In this document: positions 2,275 through 63,910 of the stretch, one piece after another | Layout: each line of letters begins with the position of its first letter | Position numbering within the stretch: the first letter of the stretch is position 1 | DNA from: Cordylochernes scorpioides | Taxonomy: Eukaryota > Arthropoda > Arachnida > Pseudoscorpiones > Chernetidae | Assembly: GCA_030710605.1 (NCBI GenBank) | Contig: CP092863.1 | Span: forward strand, 121,322,203 to 121,386,202 | Direction of reading: 5' to 3' | Length of the DNA: 64,000 bases | The notes under the pieces: model-generated | The model's input: the letters and a program-made list of their open reading frames with translations, nothing else | Databases searched by the model: none | Told to the model about the DNA's origin: nothing | Position numbers and translations under genes: made by a program

Positions 2275-2500
2275 GGATAAGGTGCATAAATTAAGAAAAA
2301 GGCATCTCCTTATCGTGTAACTGAAAGTTGCTGATGGCTTGCGCCATCTATCGGAATAAATATCAACTATTCTCGTTGATTTTTAATTATTCCAGAATTG
2401 GCCAATTACCCATTCTTGATTAATCAAGAAAAGCTAACCACGTACGCGTTTCGGGCTGTTGGCCCTCATCAGCGTGGTGTAAGCATGCATAATTTGATAT
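2275..2500 (-). mobile_element. Ribozyme-bearing short repeat, family R2 (copy 1)
   Basis: On the minus strand the unit runs from a hammerhead ribozyme through a CTTGATTAATCAAG hairpin, a GATGGCGC motif and a stem of about 15 bp, to AAGGAGATGCC and a T run. Homologous units lie at 20,450-20,790, 29,815-30,035 and 42,700-43,030. There is no coding capacity, so it is non-autonomous. The layout resembles published animal retrozymes or the terminal repeats of Penelope-like elements. Confidence 0.65.
2432..2484 (-). ncRNA. Hammerhead ribozyme, type I, intact core (R2)
   Basis: On the minus strand: stem I ACCACG/CGTGGT (6 bp), extended by GCT/AGC across an internal loop; CTGATGA; stem II GGGC/GCCC with a CAACA loop; GAAA; stem III ACGCGT; then GTA, a legal NUH site, with cleavage expected between plus positions 2,443 and 2,442. 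Every invariant core base of the hammerhead is present. Stem III is a six-base palindrome, too tight to close alone, so dimeric cleavage is likely. The ribozyme would release the 5' end of the R2 transcript. Activity is inferred, not measured. Confidence 0.85.
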
Positions 2501-2777
2501 AATATGTTGAACTATTTAATAACTACATTTATAGTGAGTTGAAGATAGAAGTTGCCGGGCTTGTATTCATTGTTCTTAAAAATAGACATTTCAGCCAGAA
2601 ATGTTTTTTTTTCTTAATTCCAATGTAACAATGTGAAATTGTACTGGAAACAAGTTTATAAATGATGTGAAAAAGCGTTCGATTATGCAAATGAAAGTTA
2701 CTGATGGTTTGCACCATTTATCTGTATTTGACCAATATATTGAAAATTATAATACAATATAATGTGGCTTATGATTG

Positions 2778-2901
2778 TAGAACGAGGTTTGACAATTTTG
2801 CCTCAAATGTTTCTTTTAAATGAAAAATCGTAATTATTTTTTCGATTACAATTTTTTCATTCAAAAGAAAACATTTGAGACAAAATTGTTAAACCTCGTT
2901 C
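2778..2901. repeat. Foldback (inverted repeat), about 55-bp arms
   Basis: The arm starting GAACGAGGTTTGACAATTTT is mirrored at 2,840-2,901 with few mismatches around an AT-rich tip. The same palindrome recurs in copy 2 at 30,317-30,432. Confidence 0.7.
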
Positions 2902-3264
2902 TATATTGAAAATTAGTTTTAAAAAATCAACGATTAGGTCATATTTATTCCAACAGGTGGCGTAATATTTTAAAGCGTTACAATTCAGTATGCGTAAATT
3001 GTCTGTGTGTGTGTGGGAAGCATATTTCACAGAGTACAAAATAAGTCAATAATAATCATTTTACCCCAATGTTTATATAATTGAGGCAGACTATTGTTCC
3101 ATATAATGTAATTATTGAAAGCGCGGGCGTCTGCCCGCATTCAAATCTTAATTAAATTAACTAAAATTAGCAAGTCATCCGCTCTCTCGGCTAAATCAAC
3201 TCTCAAGTGTCGAATTAACATAAGTTGGATTTCAATAAATGAAATAGATACCCTTATTATGATG
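2902..3264. other. No gene seen
   Basis: Mostly AT-rich sequence shared with copy 2 (30,433-30,790). It includes a GACAGGTGGCG-like motif typical of the local repeats and a short GC-rich palindrome (GCGGGCGTCTGCCCGC) near 3,123. No supported open frame. Confidence 0.5.
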
Positions 3265-3318
3265 CATTAGCGCGCCATCTGTTATCAAAATACGAAACTA
3301 TTATAGACGTGTATTATT

Positions 3319-3396
<78 letters not shown>

Positions 3397-3700
3397 AATT
3401 TCTACTGTCCTTACTGCAATGAAAAAATTAATGGGAGGGCCTGACTCATCAGTGGTGAACCCTTACAGCGGTTTCGCCAGTTTAATCATCCAAAAGTCTA
3501 GCTTCAGTATCAGTATAAAAGGAAAACCGAAAAATTCAATATAACAGCGGTATGGTAGATTAAACTGGCGAAACCGCTGGGAGGGTTCACCACTGATGAG
3601 CCAGGTCCTCATATTCATTTGTCCATTGCAGTAAGGACAGTAGAAATTGTTTATTTAAAAAAGAATCATACGGGTCTATAATAGTTTCGTATTTATAGAT
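3265..3700. mobile_element. Foldback element, family R1
   Basis: Long inverted arms are centred near 3,520. The left arm contains CTTACTGCAATG, GGGAGGGCCTG and GCGGTTTCGCCAG; the right arm repeats these in reverse complement. The outer flank carries the GCGCCATCTGTTATC motif. A pure TA microsatellite (3,325-3,394) has expanded inside the left arm; copy 2 has only a few repeats there. Family members with a mariner-type core at 44.2-45.2 kb suggest mariner-derived miniature elements. Confidence 0.75.
3325..3394. repeat. (TA)n microsatellite
   Basis: About 35 uninterrupted TA repeats. The equivalent site in copy 2 (about 30,861) has only a short run, so the expansion followed duplication or differs between haplotypes. 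Confidence 0.95.
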
Positions 3701-3961
3701 ACCCTTATACTATATAATAGGTTAGAGATTCCACATTGGTAACAAATGTAAAGATAACAAATAATTGGAAGATATGAGCATTTAAAGTCCGAAACGGTAT
3801 ATATCATCGTTTATCATTACTCTTCACAATTCATCCTTTCATACTTCACCCCTAAGGTTAGATATAATCGTTATTTCTCCTTGAAATACATTTTTCGTTC
3901 AAAAGAAACATATACGGGATAATTTTCAAATGTCGTTCTACAATCATAAGCCGCATTATAT

Positions 3962-4148
3962 TGTAACAACGCATTTATTAATTTTATTATATTTATTAAC
4001 AGAGTGGTAATTTTTATGTTTATATTTTGCTACTCTGTAAATTTTCCTCGTGGCTTATCTTTTGTTTACCATTCTTAGTTTGTTCTTGCCTGAAATAAAA
4101 TGTTGGCCCATCCTGAAGTTTTTGTCTTCCCTAATTTTCCACGTCGCA
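3962..4148 (+). repeat. Left LTR of the miniature element
   Basis: 187 bp, TGTAACAA...CGCA; pairs with 4,480-4,666. Confidence 0.8.
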
Positions 4149-4479
4149 TTTTCGTGGAGATGCTGGGTAAGTTAGGGAAGACAAACTGAAGATCGCCGAG
4201 AAGACCTTGAAGCCATGGGTGCTGTAATCCACATTTTTAGAGACTGGCTCCAGGATTCCACCGCCGTGTCAAAGCCAAGACTTCCTTCCAAGATGACGAT
4301 GTCCCTATAGACGATACGACGACAAAGCCGCTCTTCACGCCGTAAGAAAAAGGACGCAAAGGTACTAGGGACAAAGTTCCAAGACTTCGATGGAATCCTT
4401 GGCAGAAGCACGTCAGATCCAAGTCAGTATCAACAATAATTGCTAGCTGTGGGTTACAGCTCCCATAGGGAAGGAGCTA

Positions 4480-4666
4480 TGTAACAAAGTATTTATTAAT
4501 TTTATTATTTTTATTAACAGAGTGGTCATTTTTATGTTTATATTTTGCTACTCTGTGAATTTACCTCGTGGCTTATCTTTTGTTTACCATTCATAGATTG
4601 TCCTTGCCTGAAGTAAATTGTTGTCTCCTCCTGAAGTTTTTGTCTTCCCTAATTTTCCACGTGGCA
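4480..4666 (+). repeat. Right LTR of the miniature element
   Basis: 187 bp, TGTAACAA...GGCA; a purine tract lies immediately upstream. Confidence 0.8.
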
Positions 4667-4670
4667 ATAT

Positions 4671-5045
4671 TGTATTATAGACATATATACATATAGTCAT
4701 AAATACATATAGACATATAATACATATAGTCAAAAAAATGTACAACAAAACCCATAAAACATATATCTACATTTATATATATAATAATTACCAAATGGCA
4801 GATATAAAAGGCAATGTAATAAAATACCATTCTCTGTATGACAAAAATAGCTTATTGAATTTACATTAATTCTTTTTTTTTCTTTCCTTGAGCTCTCCAA
4901 TCAATAGGGGCTTTCTTTTACATTTTCCATTGTAGCCAGATTATATTTCTTTAGAGAGGACCGAGAGAGAAAAAAATATTAAAAAGTGATTAATAAAATT
5001 TATAAAAAAAATTGAACAATTTTTAAGTCGTATGAATCTTTTAAA
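4671..5045. other. No gene seen
   Basis: AT-rich spacer with short ACATATAGTC-type tandem motifs at 4,680-4,735. Shared with copy 2 (32,148-32,525). Confidence 0.5.
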
Positions 5046-5290
5046 ATAAAATCAATTTTCTACTGTTTTTTACTGCAATGATAAAATAATGGAAGGGCTT
5101 TGCTCATCAGTGGTGAACCCTCCCAGCGGTTTCGCCAGTTTAATCTACCATACCACTGTTATATTGCATTATTCGGTTTTCCTTTTATAGTGATACTGTT
5201 GCTAGACTCTTGGAATGGGTATTTTAGATGAACTTATGGACATAAGCTTTGAGGACAGTAGAAATACAAAATATTATGTATATATCAATA
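5046..5290. mobile_element. R1-family element, degraded
   Basis: Carries one R1 arm (ACTGCAATG, CTCATCAGTGGTGAACCCTCC, GCGGTTTCGCCAG) followed by the TCTTGGAATGGGTATTTTAG segment that also flanks the R1 element at 49.9 kb. The second arm is mostly lost. Copy 2 equivalent: 32,530-32,765. Confidence 0.6.
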
Positions 5291-5541
5291 TTTCGTCAAA
5301 AATTGAGGTCAGTAGAAAATGTATTTATTTTAAAAAGAAACATAGTTTCATAAATAGTTCATTTTTTTTATAACAGATGGCGCTCTATTGCATCATATTA
5401 ATTTAATTTATATTGACCAAAATAAAAATCAATAAGCATATCACTGTCGTCAATGTTTGTTGGATTACTTTTACCAAATTCACTTCATAAAAAACGTGGT
5501 CCAATATGTAAATATATGCAAAATGTAAAACCAAAGAAGTT

Positions 5542-5590
5542 TCTGTACTGATGAAACCAAAGCCCGAAACTATTCATCTTAGATTGACTT
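5542..5590 (+). ncRNA. Degenerate hammerhead ribozyme (R5)
   Basis: CTGATGA and GAAAC are present 11 bases apart, but stem II no longer pairs (AACC against GCCC) and no clean NUH plus stem I match follows. It sits just upstream of an AACTGGTGTT segment, as in families R4 and R6. Copy 2: 33,015-33,060. Confidence 0.5.
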
Positions 5591-5609
5591 TTTGTCTAGG
5601 TTTTCTAAA

Positions 5610-6285
5610 ACTGGTGTTATATTGACAAACATTTTCAGTTTTTTTTTTTCAGTTTTTAGCGGGAAGAATGTTGTCTTCGTTTGTTAGTGAACCAATCTCT
5701 AACGTCATTGGACGAATGTGGCCATGTCTGTATATAAGAGGGGACTAAGGGAATGCCCAGGGGGCCCTGAGTGTGGAGAATTGGTGTGGAGACACTTAAA
5801 GTGTTTTTCAACGTGTTTTTTCCGTGTCTGGGGATCTCTTCGCATCCCGGTGTAACCCGAGTCCGATCCCTACCAACGCTACAATAAAGATAAGTACTGT
5901 TTTGTTTTATTTTACCAATCGTGAGTTTCATTTACTTCCATCTTGTTGTTGGTGTTGTACTCTTGAGTGTACGCTTTTCTGTGTATTAAGTTATATTTAC
6001 TTTAGGCCTTAGTATATTCCATTTTTGTGTGTTAACCCGTAATAGTTACTTTTGTCTTTTTTTTTTTGTATCTTTATAACATGGCTCCCATGAGCTTTTT
6101 CCTCCCGACAGCGGGAGGTTTACCTTACAAGACAAAAATAATGTTTGGGAGATTTTTTTTTTTTCGTTGTCAGGATACCTTTTGTCAAATTATATTGACA
6201 AACATTTTCAGTTTTTTTTTTATCAGTTTTTAGCGAGAAAAATATTGTCTTCGTTTGTTAGTGAACCAATCTCTCACGCCTATTC
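5610..6285 (+). repeat. Promoter-bearing repeat with terminal direct repeats, LTR-like
   Basis: An approximately 85-bp segment beginning TATTGACAAACATTTTCAG at 5,617 recurs at 6,193. Between them are a TATA box (TATATAAG, 5,731-5,738) and a polyadenylation signal (AATAAA, 5,883-5,888), the spacing expected of an LTR promoter and R region. No protein. It could be a solo LTR with a partial tandem copy, or a Penelope-type terminal repeat, since a hammerhead relic precedes it. Copy 2: 33,095-33,765. Confidence 0.5.
5731..5738 (+). promoter_or_regulatory. TATA box of the LTR-like repeat
   Basis: TATATAAG in a local GC-richer context; conserved in copy 2 at 33,206-33,213. Confidence 0.5.
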
Positions 6286-6533
6286 TATATCACCCCTAGA
6301 TGGTCTGTACTAGGTGATGGTTAAAAATGCATTGTTTTTATGCATTTTTCACGTGAAAAATGCATTTTTTTGGTACAATATACAAAAGGTTTGCTATTTT
6401 ATTTTGAAATATACTCCCCATCTCTACAGGTATGAACTTTTTTCTACAAATATAGATATGCAGTGCATTAAGTACCCACCATGATTATCATAGCCTGAAT
6501 TATAAATATTTGGGAGAGAGCTAAGTAGAAGCA

Positions 6534-7114
6534 TACATTCATGGACAGAACTTAGGGCGGTAGGAAGTCTTTGATATCGCCGGTCGTCTCTCTATATATA
6601 TATATATATTTTTTTTTGAAGCAAACAGAGGTGCTATTCACACTTAGTTATCTCGCGTGTCTTCAATAAAGGTCACTGTAATATCTTTCAGAGTTATTGT
6701 CTCAATCCCGATATACATGCTAAAAGGTACAACTTCCTTAAGTTTTGTCCATGAGTATATATTTGTTATCTCGTGTGTCTTCAATAAAGGTCACTGTAAT
6801 ATCTTTCAGAGTTATTGTCTCAATCCCGATATACATGCTAAAAGGTACAACTTCCTTAAGTTTTGTCCATGAGTGTATATTGGTTATCTCGCGTGTCTTC
6901 AATAAAGGTCACTGTAATATCTTTCAGAGTTATTGTCTCAATCCCGATATACATGCTGAAAGGTACAACTTCCTTAAGTTTTGTCCATGAGTGTATATTG
7001 GTTATCTCGTATGTCTTCAATAAAAGTCACTGTAATATCTTTCAGAGTTATTGTCTCAATCCCGGTATACATGATAAAAGGTACAACTTCCTTAAGTTTT
7101 GTCCATGAGTGTTT
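6534..7114. mobile_element. Tc1/mariner-like miniature element with internal 118-bp array (array 1, about 4 units, reverse orientation)
   Basis: The left terminus TACATTCATGGACAGAACTTAGG and the right terminus AAGTTTTGTCCATGAGTGT are inverted matches. Between them come a GATATCGCCGGTCGTC segment, a TA run, AGAGGTGCTATTCACACTTAGT and then tandem 118-bp units. The unit itself ends in the terminal motif, so expansion has repeatedly copied one end of the element. Confidence 0.75.
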
Positions 7115-7678
7115 ATAAAAAAAAACCCTCAAAATAACTTTTAAAAAGTTTTAAATTAATATGTGAATATACCTTTTTTGCATATATTATAAATATCTAA
7201 GAGAAATAATTATAAAAATGACTAATAGATGACACTAGTTTTAAATTACCTAATATAAAAAAAGGTAAACTACTGTTTTAAATGTGTAGAAAGTTTATAT
7301 AACTAAAAAAGAAAAAAAAAAACGATAACTCTGATAATTATACCTTTGTCATAAAAAGTTATGTTTTACAATAATCTTTTATAGGGGCTTTAAAGTTGAC
7401 TTTTCAAAATGCCAATTTCAAGGAAAAGTTATAAAAACGGTTCCATTAAAATTGTAATTTCAAAGTGGAGTATATTACTGTCTATCAAATATCAATATAT
7501 TTACTCGAAAATATAATTCTCTGAATAGAATTTTAATATCATAATATATTTACTCTCTCATCAAAATATAATACAATATAATATTTTATTAGTCTTTTCA
7601 ATATAAAAAATGATATTTTAGAAGGTTTTAAAATTATAAATAGTGTTTGTTGTAAAGAAAGATTAAAATTTGGGTATA
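7115..7678. other. Inter-array spacer, no gene seen
   Basis: AT-rich, collinear with 34,480-35,020 of copy 2. Only short incidental open frames. Confidence 0.5.
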
Positions 7679-7993: not shown

Positions 7994-8341
7994 TGTTGCA
8001 TCATGATTAATGCGCCTATTTTTAAAATTATTTATAATATTATTTTTAATATATTTAAAATTTAAATTATAAATTTATTTATTTTTATAAAACAGATTAT
8101 TAATATAAAATATTATGTACTATAAAACATTTGTATTTTGATACACTAAATACCCTACATGCTTTAAACTTTGATGTGGTAAATAAAGAGAGATTCTAGG
8201 TGCTACCTAAATTTATAGTTGTCATATTATTGACTGGTTTAACCTTGTGAGATGGTTGAGACACGTTCTGGAAAGATGCAAGACACGTCTGAGGAGAGAC
8301 TTAAGACTGAAGAATCTGCCAAACCGCAGCCCAGTGCAACA
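7994..8341 (+). repeat. 5' LTR of gypsy element 1
   Basis: 348 bp, TGTTGCA...TGCAACA with 7-bp inverted ends. Contains AATAAA at 8,182-8,187. Its last 90 bases encode the first 30 residues of Gag. Confidence 0.95.
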
Positions 8342-9415
8342 ATTGGTAGAGATGCAAGTGCCGACCCAGTTGTTTTGAACCCCAACATAGACATCCCCAA
8401 ATATGATGGAACAGAAGACCCTCGCCCATGGATTGAGTCCCTTGAAGAAATTGGCTTCCTGTACCACTGGGCAGAATATATTATTTCTCGCTATGCAGCC
8501 ATGAACATGATTGGTAGCGCCAAAACCTGGCTGGACCTACACAAGATAAGTTTTACCAGCTGGGAACATTTCAAGAGCCGCCTAATTCAGGATTTTGGCT
8601 CAGACGCCAACAAAGAAGAATTGAAGATGAGGCTGAACAGAATGCAGCAGTGGAATGAACCTGCAATCAGGTTTGCAGAGGATATCCTGGTTCTGTGCAA
8701 CAAGGTCGACCCCCAAATGGAAGAAGAGAATAAAATAAATTGGGTTATTGGAGGGTTAAAGAAAGAATACTCTTTTGCCCTCTACTTAAACCCTCCTAAG
8801 AATACCAACGAACTCCTAAGATTGTGTAAAAAGATGGATTTGTTTGAAAATAATTATCAAGAACGTATAGAAAAATCAAAGGTTCTATATAATGGACCAC
8901 GCTCTCCTCGTTCCCACCATCAAGAACAATGGAAGAACGCTCCGTCGTTCAGAAGACCAGACCAGAACACCTCCAAGCCCCAGGCCCCCGCTCCGAGGTA
9001 CTACCAGAACACCCCCAAGCCCCAGGCCCCCGCTCCGAGGTACTACCAGAACAAGCCGCTGCCCCAGGTATCTGCCCCTAGACGATTTTACACTCCCATT
9101 CCTGAGCTAAAACCGGTCTACCCAAGGAAAACCTACAATAAGAGTCCAGATTCAAACAGGAATAGGACAGAAGACGGGAGACCAATATGTTTCAAGTGTA
9201 ACAAGCCAGGACACGTAGCGCGGTATTGCAGAGTCAAGTTTGTGAGGATCGTAGAAGAGGACCCCTCAGTTTCCCAAGACAAGAGCCAAGAAAATCTTCA
9301 AATGGACGAAAGGAAAGATTATACACGGCCTCGCCTCTATGCGGATGTTTGTAATGACACACAAATGAATATTCCTACACGGAATAGATATTCCGTGTTG
9401 GAAGATTTAAACTAA
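8252..9415 (+). CDS. gag: Gag polyprotein of gypsy element 1
   Basis: 387 codons, uninterrupted. The capsid-like central part (about residues 50-200) is followed by a Pro/Gln-rich linker with two near-identical PQAPAPRYYQN repeats (about 243-267). One CCHC zinc knuckle of form CX2CX4HX4C follows at 313-326, the nucleocapsid RNA-binding motif. Gag packages the element's RNA into particles. The ATG at 8,252 is the first in frame and lies within the LTR, so residues 1-30 are LTR-encoded. Any primer site directly after the LTR would therefore be inside gag, as in yeast Ty1. Protease follows in another frame. Confidence 0.92.
   Translation: MVETRSGKMQDTSEERLKTEESAKPQPSATIGRDASADPVVLNPNIDIPKYDGTEDPRPWIESLEEIGFLYHWAEYIISRYAAMNMIGSAKTWLDLHKISFTSWEHFKSRLIQDFGSDANKEELKMRLNRMQQWNEPAIRFAEDILVLCNKVDPQMEEENKINWVIGGLKKEYSFALYLNPPKNTNELLRLCKKMDLFENNYQERIEKSKVLYNGPRSPRSHHQEQWKNAPSFRRPDQNTSKPQAPAPRYYQNTPKPQAPAPRYYQNKPLPQVSAPRRFYTPIPELKPVYPRKTYNKSPDSNRNRTEDGRPICFKCNKPGHVARYCRVKFVRIVEEDPSVSQDKSQENLQMDERKDYTRPRLYADVCNDTQMNIPTRNRYSVLEDLN
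8344..8358 (+). other. Possible primer-binding site of gypsy element 1
   Basis: TGGTAGAGATGCAAG starts two bases after the LTR. TGGTAG would pair with the CTACCA end of initiator tRNA-Met, but the match beyond six bases is poor, so the primer is uncertain. It lies inside the gag frame. Confidence 0.35.
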
Positions 9416-10325
9416 GTGTCGCGCCTGATTCCTTCAATCAAAGCAAGTCGACCATAAATGGAATTAGAAAGTTGGACCCTAGGTACAAAATTAATATTAA
9501 TGTGGACAAGATAGGGTTATGCGAAGCTTTGATTGATACAGGCGCCGATCTTTCAGTGGTCGACCTAAGAACAGCACTTTTGCTAGCCGTGAAATAAATA
9601 GTCTCACTAAAACGTGTTCAGGACCCGATGGAAAAAAATTAGATATGGTAGGTAGCATTATTTTAGATTTAAAAATTGATGACACTGAATTATCCCACGA
9701 ATTTATAGTAATGGACGCGCATCTACGAACTCTTATTCTTGGACGAGATTTCCTTAAAAAAATGAATGCTAAAATTGATTGTAAACGAGAAACAATAAAA
9801 TATAATTTGATGAGTAATCATGACGTAAGCAATTATGATCTAAAAAAAATGAAGAGCACTACAGATACCGTTATACCTAAACTATCTATTAAATTGATTA
9901 GGGCCTCAATAGAAGCAGAGGATGGCGAATATGTCATCGAAGAGAACAACAGAATGACTCAAACAAATGGTCTTCGATTGGCAAGAAGTTTGCTTACTGT
10001 CACGGATAAGAAAACCCATATCTGGATAAAGAACCCTTATCCTCGACCTTTAAAAATCATGAAAGACCAAACATTGGCTTATGGAAGTCTTCCTGCAGGG
10101 GTAAATTTTATAGAGAATAAAGAGAAGCAGAATGAAAATGACGAAATACAATTTCAAATAAACAAAAATTTAACATTTAAAGAACAAGAGAGGTTAAAAC
10201 AAATTTTGGCCAAGTATACTGATTTGTTCTCATCGAGGTTAGGTAGGACCAGTTTGGCAAAACATCAGATTCATACAGAAGACGCAAAACCAATAAAGCA
10301 CAAGCCTTACCCGGGTAAGCGCTAA
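9416..10325 (+). pseudogene. pol: Protease and N-terminal pol of gypsy element 1, frame-broken
   Basis: Aspartic protease: the catalytic DTGA is at about 9,535-9,546 in one frame. The second protease landmark, ILGRDFL, lies at about 9,730-9,750 in a different frame. The frame therefore changes between about 9,550 and 9,590, and the first frame stops at 9,594. The second frame (open from 9,645 or earlier) runs to a stop at 10,323-10,325 just before reverse transcriptase. A second frame change sits near 10,311 in a C run. The protease would cut Gag-Pol. Gag and this region are also in different frames, which may be natural frameshifting; the later changes look like damage or sequencing error. 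Confidence 0.8.
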
Positions 10326-11451
10326 GGAACGAACCATCATAAAGGATCAAATAGACGAGATGCTCGAAGAAGGAATAATTAGACAATCTTCAAGTCCCTG
10401 GTCCTTTCCCGTTATATTGGTCAAAAAACGAGATGGCAAATACAGATTTTGTGTGGACTACAGGAAATTAAATGAAGTAACAGTGAAGGATGTTTATCCA
10501 ATCCCAAGAATTGATGATGTAATGGATACTCTCCAAGGATCCAAGTACTTCTCAGCAATAGATCTCAAATCGGGATATTGGCAAGTCGAAATTGAAGAGA
10601 GGGACAAAGAGAAGACGGCTTTCACTACTGCACATGGGTTATATGAATTCAACGTAATGCCCTTCGGTCTATGCAACGCCCCTGCTACTTTTGAGAGGAA
10701 CATGGACAATGTCCTCGGAAATCTGAGATGGCAGATTTGCCTTTGCTACCTGGACGATGTAATTATATACAGCTCGGACTTTCCAACCCACATTAAAAGA
10801 CTTGAAGCTGTCCTCAGATGCTTCAGCGAATCTAATTTAAAACTGAACGCCAAGAAATGCAGATTTGCTTTCGAGGAACTTGAGATCCTTGGACATATAA
10901 CCAACCAAGAGGGTATAAAACCTGCCGAATATAATATCAAAGCCGTTAGATATTTTCCTCAGCCCAAGAAGGCCAAAGAAGTGCAATCATTCCTAGGAAT
11001 GTGCTCATATTATAGAAAATTTATTAAAGATTTCTCATTAATCGCTGACCCATTGACCAGTCTCATCAGAAAAAATGTGCAATTTATCTGGACAGGAAAA
11101 CAGGAAGAAGCGTTCCAAAACCTTAAAAAAGCTCTTATGAATCCGCCAATTTTAGGTCACTTTGATCCAAATGCAGCCACCTGCATTCACACAGATGCCT
11201 CTAACATCGGCTTAGGCGCAACACTAATTCAAAATATCGGTGGCGAAGAGAAGGTAATATCATATTTGAGCCGAACCCTAAGTAAACCTGAGCAAAATTA
11301 TTCAACCACCGAAAAGGAATGTTTAGCTGTAGTGTGGTCGATATCAAAATTACGGCCCTATTTATATGGAAGGCACTTTAAAATCGTAACTGATCATCAC
11401 GCACTATGCTGGCTTAAGAATTTAAAAGATCCGACCGGTCGATTAGCATGA
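10326..11451 (+). pseudogene. pol: Reverse transcriptase and RNase H of gypsy element 1
   Basis: Open from 10,360 (first ATG) with same-frame sequence upstream. Numbering from that ATG: RT motifs include FSAIDLKSGYWQ (64-75), MPFGLCNAPATF (100-111) and the catalytic YLDD (130-133). The RNase H domain has HTDAS (D279), TEKE (E319) and VTDHHAL (D345), all active-site positions intact. The frame ends at a TGA (11,449-11,451) in mid-domain, where family members continue without interruption and where homologous sequence resumes in the same frame. A TGA arising from CGA by CpG decay would explain it. Confidence 0.9.
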
Positions 11452-14578: not shown

Positions 14579-14920
14579 TCAGAAAACAAATGAAGAGAAA
14601 TGATATAAGGCGTGGAACAAATTATATTACACAGTTATAATATAAATATAGGTAAGTATTATAGCTGTAATAGAGTCTGATCCATGTTTGTGTTGATAAC
14701 ATCTATCTTCATTTGTTTTTGGATTTTACCTTTGAAGAACATCTTTTGCTCGAAAGCTTGCAATATATATAAATAAATAAACACTTTTTGCCCTAATTTC
14801 TCTTTTTTTAAAATATTTATAGGCAACTCTATAGCGTAATAGAAAATAAAATGGTTAAGAAATCAAAATAGTTTATAATATACATTTCACTTATATATAT
14901 AAAAATATTAATAAAAGAAA
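14579..14920. other. Spacer with hammerhead-like relic
   Basis: AT-rich. At about 14,731-14,760 a TTGAAGA, a poorly paired hairpin and CGAAAGCTTGC recall the AGCT-type hammerheads at 26.1 and 47.2 kb, but the core is altered. Conserved in copy 2 near 36,490. Confidence 0.4.
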
Positions 14921-14924
14921 AAAA

Positions 14925-15050
14925 GGCATCTCTTTATCGTGCGTTGAAAGTTGCTGATGGCTTGTGCCATCTATCGGAATAAATATCAACAATGGCGCAA
15001 GCCATCAACAACTTTCAGTTGCACGATAAGGAGATGACTTTTTTCTTTTC
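14925..15050. mobile_element. R2 foldback without ribozyme
   Basis: Two R2 3' arms face each other (GGCATCTC...GCCATCTATCGG against its reverse complement) with only an ATATCAACA-type spacer. Copy 2: 36,680-36,805. Confidence 0.75.
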
Positions 15051-15112
15051 TTCTCTTAATTTATAAATCTCTTATCTCAATAAAATGTCATATTTGTACT
15101 ATTTTTTTTATA

Positions 15113-20360: not shown

Positions 20361-20361
20361 A

Positions 20362-52906: not shown

Positions 52907-55900
52907 TCATAGAGACAAAACTTAAGGAAGTTGTACCTTTCAGCATGTATATCGGGATTGAGACAATAACTCTGGAAGATATTACAGTGACCTTTATTGA
53001 AGACACACGATATAACCAATATACACTCATGGACAAAACTTAAGGAAGTTGTACCTTTCAGCATGTATATCGGGATTGAGACAATAACTCTGAAAGATAT
53101 TACAGTGAACTTTATTGAAGACACACGAGATAACCAATATACACTCATGGACAAAACTTAAGGAAGTTGTACCTTTCAGCATGTATATTGGGATTGAGAC
53201 AATAACTCTGAAAGATATTACAGTGACCTTTATTGAAGACACACGAGATAACCAATATACACTCATGGACAAAACTTAAGGAAGTTGTACCTTTCAGCAT
53301 GTATATCGGGATTGAGACAATAACTCTGAAAGATATTACAGTGACCTTTATTGAAGACACACGAGATAACCAATATACACTCATGGACAAAACTTAAGGA
53401 AAGTTGTACCTTTCAACATGTATATCGGGATATTGTGAAAATATCTCTGAAATATATTACAGTGACCTTTATTGAAGACACACGAGATAACCAATATACA
53501 CTCATGGACAAAACTTAAGGAAAGTTGTACCTTTCAACATGTATATCGGGATATTGTGAAAATATCTCTGAAATATATTACAGTGACCTTTATTGAAGAC
53601 ACACGAGATAACCAATATACACTCATGGACAAAACTTAAGGAAGTTGTACCTTTCAGCATGCATATCGGTATTGAGACAATAACTCTGAAAGATATTACA
53701 GTGACCTTTATTGAAGACACACGAGATAACCAATATACACTCATGGACAAAACTTAAGGAAGTTGTACCTTTCAGCATGTATATCGGGATTGAGACAATA
53801 ACTCTGAAAGATATTACAGTGACCTTTATTGAAGACACACGAGATAACCAATATACACTCATGGACAAAACTTAAGGAAAGTTGTACCTTTCAACATGTA
53901 TATCGGGATATTGTGAAAATATCTCTGAAATATATTACAGTGACCTTTATTGAAGACACACGAGATAACCAATATACACTCATGGACAAAACTTAAGGAA
54001 GTTGTACCTTTCAGCATGTATATCGGGATTGAGACAATAACTCTGAAAGATATTACAGTGAACTTTATTGAAGACACACGAGATAACCAATATACACTCA
54101 TGGACAAAACTTAAGGAAGTTGTACCTTTCAGCATGTATATTGGGATTGAGACAATAACTCTGAAAGATATTACAGTGACCTTTATTGAAGACACACGAG
54201 ATAACCAATATACACTCATGGACAAAACTTAAGGAAGTTGTACCTTTCAGCATGTATATCGGGATTGAGACAATAACTCTGAAAGATATTACAGTGACCT
54301 TTATTGAAGACACACGAGATAACCAATATACACTCATGGACAAAACTTAAGGAAAGTTGTACCTTTCAACATGTATATCGGGATATTGTGAAAATATCTC
54401 TGAAATATATTACAGTGACCTTTATTGAAGACACACGAGATAACCAATATACACTCATGGACAAAACTTAAGGAAAGTTGTACCTTTCAACATGTATATC
54501 GGGATATTGTGAAAATATCTCTGAAATATATTACAGTGACCTTTATTGAAGACACACGAGATAACCAATATACACTCATGGACAAAACTTAAGGAAGTTG
54601 TACCTTTCAGCATGCATATCGGTATTGAGACAATAACTCTGAAAGATATTACAGTGACCTTTATTGAAGACACACGAAATAACCAATATACACTCATGGA
54701 CAAAACTTAAGGAAGTTGTACCTTTCAGCATGTATATCGGGATTGAGACAATAACTCTGAAAGATATTACAGTGACCTTTATTGAAGACACACGAGATAA
54801 CCAATATACACTCATGGACAAAACTTAAGGAAAGTTGTACCTTTCAACATGTATATCGGGATATTGTGAAAATATCTCTGAAATATATTACAGTGACCTT
54901 TATTGAAGACACACGAGATAACCAATATACACTCATGGACAAAACTTAAGGAAAGTTGTACCTTTCAACATGTATATCGGGATATTGTGAAAATATCTCT
55001 GAAATATATTACAGTGACCTTTATTGAAGACACACGAGATAACCAATATACACTCATGGACAAAACTTAAGGAAGTTGTACCTTTCAGCATGCATATCGG
55101 TATTGAGACAATAACTCTGAAAGATATTACAGTGACCTTTATTGAAGACACACGAGATAACCAATATACACTCATGGACAAAACTTAAGGAAGTTGTACC
55201 TTTCAGCATGTATATTGGGATTGAGACAATAACTCTGAAAGATATTACAGTGACCTTTATTGAAGACACACGAGATAACCAATATACACTCATGGACAAA
55301 ACTTAAGGAAGTTGTACCTTTCAGCATGTATATCGGGATTGAGACAATAACTCTGAAAGATATTACAGTGACCTTTATTGAAGACACACGAGATAACCAA
55401 TATACACTCATGGACAAAACTTAAGGAAGTTGTACCTTTCAGCATGTATATCGGGATTGAGACAATAACTCTGAAAGATATTACAGTGACCTTTATTGAA
55501 GACACACGAGATAACCAATATACACTCATGGACAAAACTTAAGGAAGTTGTACCTTTCAGCATGTATATCGGGATTGAGACAATAACTCTGAAAGATATT
55601 ACAGTGACCTTTATTGAAGACACACGAGATAACCAATATACACTCATGGACAAAACTTAAGGAAGTTGTACCTTTCAGCATGTATATTGGGATTGAGACA
55701 ATAACTCTGAAAGATATTACAGTGACCTTTATTGAAGACACACGAGATAACCAATATACACTCATGGACAAAACTTAAGGAAGTTGTACCTTTCAGCATG
55801 TATATCGGGATTGAGACAATAACTCTGAAAGATATTACAGTGACCTTTATTGAAGACACACGAGATAACCAATATACACTCATGGACAAAACTTAAGGAA

Positions 55901-56392
55901 GTTGTACCTTTCAGCATGTATATCGGGATTGAGACAATAACTCTGAAAGATATTACAGTGACCTTTATTGAAGACACACGAGATAGCCAATATACACTCA
56001 TGGACAAAACTTAAGGAAGTTGTACCTTTCAGCATGTATATTGGGATTGAGACAATAACTCTGAAAGATATTACAGTGACCTTTATTGAAGACACACGAG
56101 ATAACCAATATACACTCATGGACAAAACTTAAGGAAGTTGTACCTTTCAGCATGTATATCGGGATTGAGACAATAACTCTGAAAGATATTACAGTGACCT
56201 TTATTGAAGACACACGAGATAACCAATATACACTCATGGACAAAACTTAAGGAAGTTGTACCTTTCAGCATGTATATCGGGATTGAGACAATAACTCTGA
56301 AAGATATTACAGTGACCTTTATTGAAGACACACGAGATAACCAATATACACTCATGGACAAAACTTAAGGAAAGTTGTACCTTTCAACATGT
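52907..56392 (+). repeat. 118-bp satellite array 9, left part (about 29 units, higher-order)
   Basis: Tandem 118/119-bp units of four main types: standard; TATATTGGG; GCATATCGGTATT; and a 119-bp type with GGATATTGTGAAAATATC. The order standard-variant, TATATTGGG, standard, 119, 119, GCATATC, standard, 119 occurs twice in succession with a 953-bp period. After about 55.2 kb the pattern changes to simple runs. The array starts with a decayed terminus at about 52,900. Confidence 0.92.
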
Positions 56393-56738: not shown

Positions 56739-58436
56739 TTAACTCTCTTCCAAACCTTGAAAACCGGGGCCTTCCGGATGGTTCTGGTGCAATCCCAGCG
56801 GATGTAGTCGCGCCTTCCCTCTGGTCAATATTGGTCTCTTCACTTGACCGCTGTATCGGGGCTGTGGATGACTCGCCCATCGTTGGACTGTAGCACTGCG
56901 GATGTTGAGCTTCTGGGGAGGCGGTAGGTCATTTTTTGGTGTATTTCTATATGCCAGAATAGCCAGATATGGGTCGGACCCTTCATCTCTACATTTGATT
57001 AGTTGATTTTTTATTGTTTGAATGTTTCTCTCGGCCAGACCATTAGATCTATGAAGGTGTGGACTTGAAAATAGTGGAAAATGGTGCAACAAATTAAGCA
57101 TAGCATTCCTTTGTGTCTTCGGAATCACTATGGCCGATCCTATACATAATAGATCATTCCATAAGTACAAACGGTGTCTGAAATCGAAAAATATTTTGGC
57201 ATCTTCATCGACGTCTTTTTTGCATATAGGCCATCCCTCAATCACATAATCGATTACTTTAACCAAAGCAGGATCCTCTCGGGTATCTTTCTGCATCGCT
57301 ACCAGTTTTTCGTCCGAGATATTAACACGTACCATCTTGACCATTCTTTTGTCTTCAAGAAAAGGCGTTGGTAGTTCGTCCATGGGGTGAGTATCCCTGG
57401 ATAGGGTATCAGCCACAATCAAGTATTTTCCTGGTTTGTACTGCAATTTGAAGTCAAATGCTATAAGCTTCATTACTAATCTTTGTAGACGCGGTGATAT
57501 ATCACTCAGCGGTTTTTTGACTAGAGGCAATAAGGGCTGGTGATCCGTCTGGACAACGAAAGTGTGTCCTGACAATAGATATTCGAACTTTTTGCATCCA
57601 TAATAAACACTCAATAACTCCTTCTCAATCTGAGAGTACTGTTTCTGCGAGTCGCTAAATGACGCGGATGCGAATGCTAGAGGTCGATCTTCCTGTAGCA
57701 GAGCAGCTCCCATTGCATCTTTGCTGGCATCACACTGCAAAATCAGCATCTTGCTTTTGTCAAAATGTGCCAACGAAGGAGCATTCCTCACGCATTCCTT
57801 AATATGATCGAATTCCCCATCCTGTTTAGGCCCCCAATGCCAGACAACATTCTTTCTTAAGATTCCTCTTATATTGGATGTGGACGCAGCTAAGTTTGGA
57901 ATGAATTTTCCTAAGTAATTATAAAGACCCATGATTCTTTGCAGCGACTTTTTATCCTCTGGCCTTTTAAAGGTAATTAATTTATCAATCTTATTTGGCT
58001 CTGGATCAATTCCATTTTGTGATATCACATGGCCCAAGAAACGAACTTTCGTTAGACATATTTGAGCCTTTGTTAAATCAAATTTGATATTTTTTTCTTT
58101 TGCTTTTTCTAGAATTCCCTTTAATTTTTTATTGTGCTCTTGAATGGTATCCGCATATATCAGCAAATCGTCTACATATGTAATATTTTGAAAGCTATCC
58201 CTAAAGATATTCGTCATTATCTCAACAAAAATTTGTGCCGATATTTTCAAACCAAATGGCAATCGGTTATATCTGAATTTGCCAAATGGCGTGGTCATCA
58301 CCAACAGATCTCTGCATTCCTTTGCAACCGGAATATGCCAATAGGCTGATTTCACGTCTAACACGGTATAATACTTAGCTTTGGGTATCTCGTGCAATAG
58401 TTCAGCTGGAGCCGGAGTCTGGAAATGTCTTCCCAC
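56739..58436 (-). pseudogene. pol: Reverse transcriptase, RNase H and deleted integrase of gypsy element 2
   Basis: 565 codons from an internal ATG; the true domain start is upstream, beyond an 11-base poly-T run (58,488-58,498). RT has LPFGLKISAQIF (59-70) and YVDD (87-90). RNase H has CDAS (D236), IEKE (E271) and QTDHQ (D298). After PKTQRNAMLNLLHH (about 451) the frame jumps straight to the end of the integrase core (SNGLAERN, E469). The zinc-finger cysteines and both catalytic aspartates are missing, a loss of very roughly 180 residues. The tail (ILTRGKARLHP) is off-family and may be out of frame. It could not integrate by itself. Confidence 0.9.
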
Positions 58437-58722
58437 AAGAGCCTCATTTAATTTCCGAGGATCCAGGCATATTCTAATTTGACCAGATTTTTTTTTTTAC
58501 AACGACCATAGGATGAGACCACTCTGTTTCATGATATATTTTTGTTACGATTCCTTGCTTCACCATCTTTTCCAATTCAGACTGAACTTCGGCTCCGAGG
58601 CTTGTTGGGATGCGCCTGGGAGGGACTTGCACAGGAGAATATTCAGGCTTTGTGTAAATCTTACATTCCGAGTTGATTAATCCTACTCCTTGAAATACTT
58701 CGTGGTATTGTTCGAGGATTTT
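58437..58722 (-). pseudogene. pol: Start of pol of gypsy element 2, in a shifted frame
   Basis: Between a T run at 58,719-58,723 and the T run at 58,488-58,498 the pol sequence reads in a different frame from both its neighbours. The two shifts compensate. Either could be sequencing error in a homopolymer; the first could be a natural gag-pol frameshift. Confidence 0.7.
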
Positions 58723-59933
58723 TGAGTTTCAGAACACAATTTCATTTCATCCGTGTTTATATGATTGATTCGCCTCAAGATTTCAAGCTTCTCGCAAGTA
58801 TCGCCCGTGATAAGTGTCTGCGCTTCTACATCGGCTACGATAAATTCAAACATTCCTTTCTTTTCACCATATTGGCATAGCACATTGCATTTGCCGACGA
58901 TAGGCAATTCTGTATTTCCATATGCGAACGCCTTTAATGACGTGGGTCTGATTTCTGGTCTTGATGGCCATTGGTTTATTACTTTATGAGGAAGCACATT
59001 TATCTGTGCGCCAGTGTCCAAATGTACCGTGGTCTTCTTGCCATTAATTATTATTACCGCGGACCACTTGTCCGACCGAACAGTCTTTACAGCAACCTCA
59101 TTAAGATTTATCTCGTCACAGGATTCTTCAGCTTCACTTTCCGCTAAGAGATTTCTTATACGTTTTGTTCGGCAAACTACTGAGAAATGATTGGTTTTTC
59201 CGCATGCATTACATTTCTTCCCATATGCTGGACACTTTCCATACTTGTGTCGTTGTCCACACCACTTACATGGTTCTATTATTCTTTCTCTTCTCGGGTT
59301 TATACCGCTTGGTCCTGCTTCTGCATTTTCCATTCGAATTGTATCTTTCACCCAATTACGTTTTTCAATTTTTTCAATCATTTTTTGCTCATTCAACGAT
59401 GCTACTTGTGAACATGTTGACTCGGAGATCACAGCTATCGAAATTGCCCTTGGTAGTGTCAACTGTGGATCTTCTAACAATTTTCTTTTCACTTCTCGGT
59501 CAAGTATTCCAATTATAAGGCGATCCCTTATGAGAGATTCTGTTAAATTCTCGAATTCACATTCTTGTGCCAGATGCTTTAATTCTGTGACGAATTCCAT
59601 GATTCCCTGCTTTTCCTTTTGTACACAGGTAAAAAATGCATTTCTCCTTTGAATCGTATTTTTGAAGGGCTTAAAATGGTTCGTAAGCATATCAAGCATT
59701 TCCTTTACATTTGGGTAGGTATCATTTTCACTTATGTGAAATGTTTTGTATATCATCACTGTTTTCTCACCAGCTATATGCTTCAAGATTGCTCGCTGAC
59801 GCACCAGCGGCATGCTTTCTAAATTTACCGCTATTGCAAAAATTTCAAACGACTCTCTCCAGGTTTCCCATTTTTTCTCGTTGCTGTACGGGACAAATTC
59901 CGCCGGCGGCTTGATTCCTTCCATTCTACTCAA
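58683..59933 (-). CDS. gag: Gag-protease of gypsy element 2
   Basis: 416 codons, intact. A capsid-like region (about 20-170) precedes two zinc knuckles: a variant CX2CX3HX4C at 222-234 and a canonical CX2CX4HX4C at 241-254. The aspartic protease follows in the same frame with the active site LDTGAQ (D306). Gag packages RNA and the protease would process Gag-Pol. The ATG at 59,931-59,933 lies 47 bases from the 5' LTR, right after the primer site. Gag and protease fused in one frame with pol in the next resembles Gag-Pol layouts in mag-like elements; the lineage assignment is tentative. Confidence 0.9.
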   Translation of the reverse strand: MSRMEGIKPPAEFVPYSNEKKWETWRESFEIFAIAVNLESMPLVRQRAILKHIAGEKTVMIYKTFHISENDTYPNVKEMLDMLTNHFKPFKNTIQRRNAFFTCVQKEKQGIMEFVTELKHLAQECEFENLTESLIRDRLIIGILDREVKRKLLEDPQLTLPRAISIAVISESTCSQVASLNEQKMIEKIEKRNWVKDTIRMENAEAGPSGINPRRERIIEPCKWCGQRHKYGKCPAYGKKCNACGKTNHFSVVCRTKRIRNLLAESEAEESCDEINLNEVAVKTVRSDKWSAVIIINGKKTTVHLDTGAQINVLPHKVINQWPSRPEIRPTSLKAFAYGNTELPIVGKCNVLCQYGEKKGMFEFIVADVEAQTLITGDTCEKLEILRRINHINTDEMKLCSETQKSSNNTTKYFKE

Positions 59934-59964
59934 TGTTGATTAATCCTGTTTTAATTCGATACTT

Positions 59965-59979: not shown

Positions 59980-60196
59980 TGTTGTAATGTGTATGAGTTG
60001 TCTGAACAAACTCGCTACGACTTACAAGCTGAACTGAACTGTTTATTCAATCTAGCAATCTTCTTATATACAAGATAGAGATAAAAAGGAAATAATTTAC
60101 GTAAGTTTAAAACAATTGACAAATGGAATAATTTTGCATAGCCAACAATAGGTAACAATTATAACACTTAACAAAGGTTATTTACATATCACAACA
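59980..60196 (-). repeat. 5' LTR of gypsy element 2
   Basis: 217 bp, two differences from the 3' LTR. Confidence 0.95.
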
Positions 60197-62863
60197 CATG
60201 TATATCGGGATATTGTGAAAATATCTCTGAAATATATTGCAGTGACCTTTATTGAAGACACACGAGATAACCAATATACACTCATGGACAAAACTTAAGG
60301 AAGTTGTACCTTTCAGCATGCATATCGGTATTGAGACAATAACTCTGAAAGATATTACAGTGACCTTTATTGAAGACACACGAGATAACCAATATACACT
60401 CATGGACAAAACTTAAGGAAGTTGTACCTTTCAGCATGTATATCGGGATTGAGACAATAACTCTGAAAGATATTACAGTGACCTTTATTGAAGACACACG
60501 AGATAACCAATATACACTCATGGACAAAACTTAAGGAAGTTGTACCTTTCAGCATGTATATCGGGATTGAGACAATAACTCTGAAAGATATTACAGTGAC
60601 CTTTATTGAAGACACACGAGATAACCAATATACACTCATGGACAAAATTTAAGGAAAGTTGTACCTTTCAACATGTATATCGGGATATTGTGAAAATATC
60701 TCTGAAATATATTACAGTGACCTTTATTGAAGACACACGAGATAACCAATATACACTCATGGACAAAACTTAAGGAAGTTGTACCTTTCAGCATGTATAT
60801 CGGTATTGAGACAATAACTCTGAAAGATATTACAGTGACCTTTATTGAAGACACACGAGATAACCAATATACACTCATGGACAAAACTTAAGGAAGTTGT
60901 ACCTTTCAGCATGTATATCGGGATTGAGACAATAACTCTGAAAGATATTACAGTGACCTTTATTGAAGACACACGAGATAACCAATATACACTCATGGAC
61001 AAAACTTAAGGAAGTTGTACCTTTCAGCATGTATATTGGGATTGAGACAATAACTCTGAAAGATATTACAGTGACCTTTATTGAAGACACACGAGATAAC
61101 CAATATACACTCATGGACAAAACTTAAGGAAGTTGTACCTTTCAGCATGTATATCGGTATTGAGACAATAACTCTGAAAGATATTACAGTGACCTTTATT
61201 GAAGACACACGAGATAACCAATATACACTCATGGACAAAACTTAAGGAAGTTGTACCTTTCAGCATGTATATTGGGATTGAGACAATAACTCTGAAAGAT
61301 ATTACAGTGACCTTTATTGAAGACACACGAGATAACCAATATACACTCATGGACAAAACTTAAGGAAGTTGTTCCTTTCAGCATGTATATCGGGATTGAG
61401 ACAATAACTCTGAAAGATATTACAGTGACCTTTATTGAAGACACACGAGATAACCAATATACACTCATGGACAAAACTTAAGGAAGTTGTACCTTTCAGC
61501 ATGTATATTGGGATTGAGACAATAACTCTGAAAGATATTACAGTGACCTTTATTGAAGACACACGAGATAACCAATATACACTCATGGACAAAACTTAAG
61601 GAAGTTGTACCTTTCAGCATGTATATCGGTATTGAGACAATAACTCTGAAAGATATTACAGTGACCTTTATTGAAGACACACGAGATAACCAATATACAC
61701 TCATGGACAAAACTTAAGGAAGTTGTACCTTTCAGCATGTATATCGGTATTGAGACAATAACTCTGAAAGATATTACAGTGACCTTTATTGAAGTCACAC
61801 GAGATAACCAATATACACTCATGGACAAAACTTAAGGAAGTTGTACCTTTCAGCATGTATATTGGAATTGAGACAATAACTCTGAAAGATATTACAGTGA
61901 CCTTTATTGAAGACACACGAGATAACCAATATACACTCATGGACAAAACTTAAGGAAGTTGTACCTTTCAGCATGTATATTGGTATTGAGACAATAACTC
62001 TGAAAGATATTACAGTGACCTTTATTGAAGACACACGAGATAACCAATATACACTCATGGACAAAACTTAAGGAAGTTGTACCTTTCAGCATGTATATCG
62101 GTATTGAGACAATAACTCTGAAAGATATTACAGTGACCTTTATTGAAGACACACGAGATAACCAATATACACTCATGGACAAAACTTAAGGAAGTTGTAC
62201 CTTTCAGCATGTATATCGGGATTGAGACAATAACTCTGAAAGATATTACAGTGACCTTTATTGAAGACACACGAGATAACCAATATACACTCATGGACAA
62301 AACTTAAGGAAGTTGTACCTTTCAGCATGTATATCGGTATTGAGACAATAACTCTGAAAGATATTACAGTGACCTTTATTGAAGACACACGAGATAACCA
62401 ATATACACTCATGGACAAAACTTAAGGAAGTTGTACCTTTCAGCATGTATATCGGGATTGAGACAATAACTCTGAAAGATATTACAGTGACCTTTATTGA
62501 AGACACACGAGATAACCAATATACACTCATGGACAAAACTTAAGGAAAGTTGTACCTTTCAACATGTATATCGGGATATTGTGAAAATATCTCTGAAATA
62601 TATTACAGTGACCTTTATTGAAGACACACGAGATAACCAATATACACTCATGGACAAAACTTAAGGAAGTTGTACCTTTCAGCATGTATATCGGGACAAT
62701 AACTCTGAAAGATATTACTGTGACCTTTATTGAAGACAACACGACATAACCAAGTGTGAACAATTTCTGTCTCGTTCAAAAAAAAAAAAAAAAAAAAAAA
62801 AAAAACAGACGACCGTCTACATCGAAGACTGTCTACTTTCTTAAATTGTATCCATGAGTGTAT
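60197..62863 (+). repeat. 118-bp satellite array 9, right part (about 21 units) with element end
   Basis: Resumes within the interrupted 119-bp-type unit. Dominated by alternating CGGTATT, TATTGGG and standard units. Closes at about 62,752 with CCAAGTGTGAACAATTTC, an A run, CAGACGACCGTC and the inverted terminus TATCCATGAGTGTATA. The whole of array 9 (about 51 units, 6.1 kb without the gypsy) therefore sits within one miniature-element frame. Confidence 0.92.
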
Positions 62864-62953
62864 ATCTATCTTCCAAAGTACTGGAGTATTGTGTGATAAA
62901 TTCCTTACTATGAAGTCTTATCTCTTAGAAAAGGAAAACCCCAACTTGATGTC

Positions 62954-63390
62954 TAGAGCTTGGTCCACCTTCCGACATGTTTGTTGTTTCTTATCCCCTT
63001 GTGTAAAATGAGTTCATTCCATGAGTTCATGACAATTGACAATTAAAACAACTTTTATTGACATCTTGTCAATATTTACACTCAAAGAGAGTTATAATAG
63101 TAAAATAATATAATAATAAATAGGAAAATTAAAATATATACAAAAAGTTATATAATAGAGAATGAGGGGAGGCATCCTCGGCGCGCGAGTGCTCTCCTCC
63201 AGGCGATGAGCGGGTCCTCCACTCCACCGAGCCCAACCTGAACAAAGTGGCGGTAGATCCGTAACTTTGCCGACGCGAGGATGGTCAGGGCCTCGTCCTC
63301 ATAAAAACAGCTCGAGGAACATGAACTCATTTACACAAGGGGATAAAAAAACAACAAAAACAAACATGGCGGAAGGTTGACCGCGCTCTA
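62954..63390. mobile_element. Inverted-repeat element carrying a GC-rich fragment
   Basis: Termini TAGAGCTTGGTCCACCTTCC and its mirror (GGAAGGTTGACCGCGCTCTA), extending about 60 bp through TTATCCCCTTGTGTAAA. The interior (63,165-63,315) is strongly GC-rich and has a minus-strand open frame of about 60 codons (63,148-63,330) without a recognised domain. Possibly a captured host exon. Confidence 0.6.
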
Positions 63391-63539
63391 AATCGGCTAA
63401 GCCAAGAGAGAGATAGGCAGAGACCGGGATAAATCTCCAAAACTCCATCCTGATATGGAGAATAACACTTACTTGTCCTCAAAATTGTATACGTCTTCTA
63501 TAGGCGGATAAATTTACTAATAAGTCAACGGTAAATAGA

Positions 63540-63910
63540 TATGTAAGACAAGGGTGGAGCACAGGGTACCTCTCCCATCAAAATAGAGGTCAAAACTAGA
63601 CGCCATTTATGGAACATCTCCACAAACTAGCAAACTCAGGTCGGTGACAAAGCCACAACACCAGCTTTGGCAAACTGAGAAACGTCCACCTAGAGACCAT
63701 GGTTTCGGGATAATGGCCCTCGTCAGTCTAGGGCGGACTTTATTCCATGAGATCCACAAGGGATCAAATGGAATCTTCACAATCTGCCAAAGAGATGTTT
63801 AGCTGGTAAAGTGGCTGGATCAAATCTATGGTCAAATTGACGTTTAATTTGACGGGAGAGGAGGGCTTTTTTAGATCAATTTCCTCCCGGCAAAATTTCC
63901 ATCTATAACT
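63540..63910 (-). mobile_element. Ribozyme-bearing repeat R4, minus strand
   Basis: Same order as 29,070-29,475 in reverse, including GGTCGGTGACAAAGCCACAA and the TTTCCTCCCGGCAAAATTTC end, with a more diverged second arm. Confidence 0.65.
63685..63736 (-). ncRNA. Hammerhead ribozyme, one stem II mismatch (R4)
   Basis: Stem I CCTAGA/TCTAGG; CTGACGA; stem II GGGC/TCCC with loop CATTA; GAAA; ACCATGGT; site GTC. Confidence 0.75.

Follow-up and report, generated by a model that had tools for sequence, protein, structure and literature searches.

By what route do short repeats that carry a hammerhead ribozyme, and are too short to encode an enzyme, enter a genome? The question is raised by a stretch of 64,000 nucleotides of the pseudoscorpion Cordylochernes scorpioides (assembly GCA_030710605.1, contig CP092863.1, positions 121,322,203 to 121,386,202), here called the window, in which hammerhead motifs lie in several short repeat families that we call R2 to R7. 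We searched the genome (2.62 Gb, 24 contigs) with R2, R4 and R7, and compared their insertions with those of a Penelope-like element (PLE) of the same genome. The structure of the insertions suggests that the GIY-YIG reverse transcriptase of PLEs probably made the genomic copies of the retrozymes. The hammerheads add members to a known kind; what is new is how the insertions are built.

Outer ends of head-to-head retrozyme insertions

The R2 monomer, measured from tandem copies, is 339 bp long and recurs in multimers with a period of 336-340 bp. The R4 monomer is 319 bp, and its copies follow head-to-tail at exactly that spacing in loci L040, L054, L055, L057, L059 and L060. The genome searches returned 3536 first-look candidates for R2, 2408 for R4 and 1143 for R7, with 40 scored in each case; a shorter R4 query returned 416. 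In both R2 and R4 the monomer lies within 170-400 nt, holds one hammerhead and occurs in tandem, the 3' ends fall at a few fixed points, and 5' truncation is variable (most R2 copies). Their GC contents are 0.407 (R2) and 0.492 (R4); passages of PMC7229834 give that of metazoan retrozymes as below 50% in the text and below 45% in a legend. When folded as circles, both monomers were more stable than sequence resampled 60 times (z -4.01 and -3.44). Monomers within one R4 insertion were about 98.5-100% identical (L054, L055, L057, L058, L059 and L060), and the insertion of several R4 copies is therefore recent; L060 contains a second, older R4 insertion with 92-93% identity to the others. Metazoan non-LTR (long terminal repeat) retrozymes, as passages of Cervera and de la Pena (2020; PMC7229834) describe them, are alike in their type I hammerhead, monomer of 170-400 nt, head-to-tail multimers, lack of coding sequence and target duplications of more than 4 bp. 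Judged by these features of their sequence, R2 and R4 are non-LTR retrozymes. In contrast to those passages, which describe nothing of the kind, many insertions here are head-to-head and two-armed, with two fixed 3' ends.

The many insertions of this sort were palindromic: two arms stand head-to-head, and both outer edges are 3' ends of the element. The outer ends lie at two fixed positions about 36-45 nt apart, and nearly every two-armed insertion uses one of each. In R4 these edges are monomer position 256 (site 1) and position 292 (site 2), on opposite strands and mostly inside (TA)n. Since the first R4 search was biased to arms ending at 256, it was repeated with positions 58-198 only as the query. 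The repeated search gave 41 matches, 15 of them extracted as loci, which correspond to 10 distinct places; eight of these hold nine two-armed pairs, and the remaining two (L075, L076) hold none. Together with one more distinct pair from the window, all 10 end-unbiased pairs had one arm per site, the tail between the sites being 36 nt. Every site-2 end fell at 292-294, and the site-1 ends fell at 253-259 in six pairs and at 241-247 or 264-265 in four. In the end-biased sample, mixed sites were found in 14 of 20 uncut pairs, a count made without L055 and L057, which are cut by the locus edge, and without L059, in whose alignment the two arms share more than 40 bases (its ends are u292 and u256).

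R2 gave the same picture. With site windows of 190-204 and 238-256, 15 of 16 uncut pairs had one end per site (14 of 15 if a pair present in duplicate counts as one), with a tail of about 45 nt; the sole exception is a chimera with a PLE, described below. Within the window alone, all three R2 pairs had one end per site. For R7, the 53 matches among the scored candidates include 13 adjacent opposite-strand pairs, all minus-then-plus, that is, head-to-head. An extra stretch of 36 nt was present on exactly one arm in each of the 12 pairs fetched (of the 13, selected as two-armed), an outcome with a chance of 1/4096 if each arm chose independently and at equal odds. The arm-pair analysis showed no neighbours that stand tail-to-tail at a distance of up to 60 bases.

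Target duplications of about 8-15 bp flank the insertions of R7 and R2, the two families covered by our measure; R4 edges lie mostly in (TA)n. The two edges of R7 insertions had 12-15 bases in common in 10 of 12 cases (mean 11.75, against 5.22 in shuffled sequences, 0 of 500 reaching it), although some of these duplications are AT-rich and the measure may take in one or two bases of the element. For R2, 11-14 bases were common to the edges in 10 of 28 loci, among which L013-L015 look like one duplicated insertion (mean 8.46, against 5.28 shuffled, 0 of 300). Short duplications of an AT-rich target are thus found in both families, as in Penelope-like insertions.

A palindrome could also form when a single primed cDNA (complementary DNA) folds back and primes itself, instead of by two independent starts. 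Such self-priming, on an antisense template, is what passages of a study of rotifer PLEs favour for head-to-head palindromes (PMC3846280), and several R7 junctions are themselves palindromic. Folding back should, however, yield identical outer ends, whereas the observed ends are offset by an almost constant distance in nearly all pairs. In addition, the lizard PLE that Frangieh et al. (2024; PMC11167929) purified is described in part of their report as cleaving both target strands and extending each. We consider self-priming unlikely and favour two starts, one on each strand.

The Penelope-like element of the same genome

We investigated whether a PLE of this genome leaves insertions of the same structure. 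Open reading frame (ORF) fragments resembling PLEs were found in 3 of the first 60 loci. The ORF of L027 matches GIY-YIG in Pfam over the cut-off (E 1.2e-6); that of L003 matches RVT_1 over the cut-off (E 3.3e-7) and, second, GIY-YIG below it (E 0.0012); that of L040 gives no match in Pfam, and its likeness to PLEs was judged by eye only. A single open frame of 402 aa in L079 holds, by eye, both reverse transcriptase and GIY-YIG regions. Pieced from such ORF fragments, an autonomous PLE with an ORF for reverse transcriptase and GIY-YIG endonuclease is present in the genome.

A search with the L027 copy returned 3110 first-look candidates, of which 40 were scored, and three head-to-head pairs were listed. 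Nine of ten fetched copies reach the same 3' point, and eight then enter other, mostly AT-rich sequence; another copy, L084, reaches the common point and continues with extra bases. A minimal hammerhead lies shortly upstream of the 3' end. Two of the three listed head-to-head copies were compared arm by arm, and both carry about 30 nt more on one arm only; these extra bases are identical in the two copies and in L084. Inverted head-to-head arms with a tail of about 30 to 45 nt on one of them are thus found in R7, R4, R2 and the autonomous PLE family.

The known PLEs are alike in these respects. According to passages of PMC11167929 and PMC3846280, they have inverted head-to-head arms, one of which may carry a tail of 30-40 bp, and a minimal hammerhead, and their targets are AT-rich and duplicated over a short length; in the rotifer elements the arms are pseudo-LTRs (pLTRs), and duplications of 8-10 bp flank some copies (PMC3846280). 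Reverse transcription by the lizard enzyme begins at two internal sites that lie next to each other, and the stretch between them is the genomic tail; in the same part of that report a dimer is predicted, and the strands were not seen to differ in start site (PMC11167929). Here, in contrast, the use of one site per arm is nearly strict. R2 and R4 also differ from PLEs in that their monomers are too short for an enzyme and form multimers of 319-339 bp units.

One insertion joins the two kinds of element. At L027/L062 an R2 arm extends through the two sites as far as position 303, where PLE reverse transcriptase sequence follows directly; past the PLE part, the fetched stretch showed no R2. The simplest reading of this single case is a template switch in one integration. 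L061 and L063, where PLE-like sequence stands beside R2-like sequence, were looked at as further chimeras and were not clear.

Insertions of long interspersed nuclear elements (LINEs) also show 5' truncation, target duplications and head-to-head inversions, and if a LINE-type element mobilised the retrozymes by twin priming, their resemblance to PLEs would be coincidental. With twin priming, however, the inverted part has an internal position, and not a second fixed 3' site, on its outer side. LINEs are named as an alternative in passages of a review (PMC11722881), whereas the two-site tail is described for PLEs in part of PMC11167929, and such a tail is present in the PLE of this genome, the one autonomous family covered by the comparison. 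We regard mobilisation by LINEs as very unlikely, and PLEs as the probable partner. The earlier note had pointed to PLEs and retrozymes as known carriers of hammerheads; this guess fits, and the two-site head-to-head structure sharpens it.

Hammerhead motifs and other repeats of the window

The insertions and arms in the window are as follows (. denotes both strands).
2233-2484 (-): single R2 arm, outer end at site 2 (u254), core 2472(-)
29772-30020 (-): R2 arm, segmental-duplication copy of 2233-2484, core 30008(-)
20421-20789 (+): R2, slightly more than one monomer, outer end at site 1 (u200), core 20604(+)
42686-43046 (+): R2, segmental-duplication copy of 20421-20789, core 42861(+)
21062-21292 (-): R2 arm with decayed core, outer end near site 2 (u249), duplicate at 43356-43548
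14911-15113 (.): R2 head-to-head, two-armed, ends at site 1/site 2, no hammerhead left, duplicate at 36671-36871
22486-22765 (.): R2 head-to-head, two-armed, ends at site 2/site 1
45783-46013 (.): R2 head-to-head, two-armed, ends at site 2/site 1
27130-27338 (+): R2b, an inverted left arm of about 30 bases and a plus arm beginning at the core, hammerhead 27160 without stem I
29059-29468 (.): R4 head-to-head, two-armed, ends u292 (site 2)/u256 (site 1), in (TA)n, core 29296(+)
22808-23085 (+): single R4 arm, ends at site 2 (u290), core 22877(+)
63558-63858 (-): single R4 arm, ends near site 1 (u251), core 63726(-)
17724-17891 (.): R4 two-armed remnant without hammerhead, ends u247/u292, duplicate at 40212-40379
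25642-25752 (-): R3 hammerhead repeat, 71% identical to R4, core 25722(-), stem II decayed
26285-26379 (+): R3 hammerhead repeat, 73% identical to R4, core 26299(+), stem II decayed
26971-27081 (+): R5 minimal hammerhead, stem I of 8 bp, stem III ACGU, core 27009(+), 78% relative at L080:1374-1482
47104-47391 (.): R7 head-to-head, two-armed, cores 47190(-) and 47274(+), one minimal hammerhead per arm, 36-nt tail on the right arm (+) and none on the left (-), outer edges approximate
33017-33093 (+): R6, degenerate R3 relative (70%), hammerhead-like core 33022(+), stems not kept, duplicate near 5548(+)

The earlier note had claimed at least twelve loci with a hammerhead core, dispersed in at least four short families whose stem I covaries between families. 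The cores are at the positions given there, and the descriptor and stem sequences below bear out the dispersed families and their covariation. The loci that count as independent are fewer. The pairs 2432/29973 and 20598/42848 are not independent, because each consists of copies inside a segmental duplication (1942-7008 against 29482-34471, 93-97%; 19096-21824 against 41353-44133, 93%); 47153/47266 are one two-armed insertion, and the hammerhead at 27160 is without stem I because the R2b plus arm starts at the core. Nor is there support for the note's view that the density of hammerheads in the window is unusual, given the numbers of first-look candidates that the R2, R4 and R7 searches returned from the genome.

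A type I descriptor, composed after inspection of the earlier core list, found seven sites on both strands of the window, against a mean of 0.185 and a maximum of 3 in 200 Markov resamplings. These sites, 2472(-), 20604(+), 22877(+), 29296(+), 30008(-), 42861(+) and 63726(-), show the type I order of CUGANGA, stem II, GAAA and NUH with an open stem I, and stem I pairs at 6/6 of its first positions at all seven, the letters varying by family. Its strands are ACCACG/CGTGGT in R2, CCTAGA/TCTAGG in R4, CCTGTA with TACAGG or TATAGG in R3, and TATTTCTC/GAGAAATA in R5. In R3, at 25722(-) and 26299(+), stem I is paired at 6/6 and stem II has decayed; these two fall outside type I, as do 27160(+), where stem I is lost, and R6. 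At the R5 site, 27009(+), 8/8 stem I positions are paired. R7 at 47153(-)/47266(+) has a minimal hammerhead with a stem I of 3 bp; the pair was considered as an inverted repeat other than a hammerhead, a reading that was rejected. Stem III is short and palindromic: ACGCGU in R2, ACCAUGGU in R4 and R3, ACGU in R5 and AGCU in R7. In this it is like that of amphibian retrozymes, and passages of PMC7229834 describe the newt and salamander hammerhead repeats as likewise short and of type I, those with a weak stem III cleaving better as dimers. Folding compared with shuffled sequences favours R5 (z -4.09) and R4 (z -2.45). As far as the sequence goes, most of the listed motifs are type I hammerheads in at least four repeat families.

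Other repeats lie among these families. The word CTGATGAG occurs 22 times in the window against 1.4 expected, and 16 of the 22 belong to a separate repeat, found in 16 places (for example 1559(-), 3593(+), 30922(-), 46332(-), 49616(+) and 50274(+)). In this repeat the stems CTGGC/GCCAG and GGGAGGG/CCCTCCC stand in pseudoknot order and appear to covary between copies, GAAAC and CTGATGA are in permuted order, and several copies form head-to-head pairs; it may be a structured RNA, or else one more short element of the Penelope type. The CTGATGAGCC repeat (16 copies) was not called a permuted hammerhead, as inspection found no stem I between its GAAAC and CTGATGA. Another word, AGATGGCG, is common to unlike families, at 20727 (R2), 22995 (R4), 27282 (R2b), and 49442(-) and 49725 (the CTGATGAG repeat). 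It occurs in 9 places on the plus and 16 on the minus strand of the window, in R2 and R4 about 40-55 bases before site 1, and the enzyme might use it for recognition.

A Twister-P1 match at 26662-26716(-) scored 45.2 bits in Rfam (E 8.9e-7), below the gathering score of 67.2; passages of a review note that RTE retrotransposons have a conserved, catalytically competent twister ribozyme at their 5' end (PMC7761336). Rfam matches named after microRNAs were all below gathering in the window, and those checked for position fall on inverted repeats. A satellite of 117/118 bp forms about eleven separate arrays, apparently on both strands, with matches of 94-98% (among them 6647-7116, 13214-14552, 24173-25080, 52894-56392 and 60197-62753). 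Two Ty3-like LTR retrotransposon coding regions, at 8243-12882 and 56739-59939, are each spread over several ORFs. The twelve best matches of the pol ORF in the first are all from Cordylochernes scorpioides (67-93% identity), with further ones up to 98%.

Proposed copying of retrozymes by a Penelope enzyme

On the basis of the genomic structure, we propose the following route. A multimeric transcript would cut itself at its hammerheads, and the monomer would be closed to a circle, as exact head-to-tail multimers and published work suggest. The PLE enzyme would cut both strands of an AT-rich target, and each target 3' end would prime reverse transcription at one of two fixed internal sites of the RNA, about 36-45 nt apart, one per strand. 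Copying would go once or several times round the circle and halt at a variable point, and the two cDNAs would then join head-to-head. The expected product is a palindrome whose two edges are both 3' ends, one of them bearing the tail, with a target duplication on its flanks. The enzyme may act as a dimer with one site per subunit.

Several points weigh against this reading. Its central step, the enzyme that would copy R2 and R4, is deduced from one chimera and from the scars. Self-cleavage and RNA circles are likewise predicted from genomic sequence. The site windows were defined after the ends had been viewed, and the R2 loci, except those of the window, are end-biased. In the end-biased R4 sample, one of the 20 pairs (L041) uses the same site twice, and in five one arm ends at neither site. 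The width of the R4 site-1 window (240-266), with four of the 10 unbiased pairs ending 8-15 nt off position 256, slightly reduces our confidence in the proposed route. Opposite arms of one insertion are more alike than copies at different loci in R4 (identity 0.986 against 0.969) but hardly so in R2 (0.949 against 0.942). One of the ten PLE copies, L080, ends 43 nt before the usual end; this early end was considered as the second PLE site and rejected, since the tail was found on the other side, and L080 is treated as an outlier.

The hammerheads themselves add to these points. Folds of the window copies were not clearly above shuffled sequences for R2 (z -0.99; R2b -0.91), R3 (-0.33 and 0.04) and R7 (-0.26). 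The covariance-model check proposed in the earlier note turned out negative: in the Rfam scan of the window no hammerhead reached its gathering score, the best being HH9 at 2421-2490(-), with 22.7 bits against 52 (E 0.41). A whole-genome search with RF00008 found no match, and is uninformative because 14 control genomes were equally silent. Together with the decay of many copies in the window, the Rfam result would fit fossil satellites or repeats like miniature inverted-repeat transposable elements, with defunct hammerheads and with arms that are the inverted terminal repeats of a DNA transposon. The arms, however, end at two differing points instead of matching inverted termini, and their truncation varies on the inner side. 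Near-identity of the R4 monomers within L054, L055 and L057-L060 speaks for recent insertion, and stem I is maintained by covariation. Fossil repeats are, in our judgement, a most improbable account, and copying by a PLE enzyme remains the probable one.

In passages of earlier work the partner of metazoan retrozymes is left undetermined, with PLEs as a candidate (PMC7761336, PMC7229834, PMC11722881), and titles and abstract beginnings among the open-access papers listed by our searches gave no report of a PLE tail or a head-to-head two-site structure in retrozymes. The insertion scars described here point more directly to PLEs, until now only the suspected partner. Whether all PLE-type integration, of autonomous elements and of their hammerhead parasites, depends on a paired enzyme complex that uses two fixed RNA start sites once each, one per strand, we hold to be evenly balanced. 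If it does, circular retrozyme RNA would be copied in rolling-circle fashion from both ends of a break, giving palindromic multimers, and retrozymes would be obligate parasites of Penelope, defined by their two start sites. The rule of one site per arm would place a sharp and testable constraint on Penelope integration, a class of eukaryotic retrotransposition whose mechanism is poorly known.

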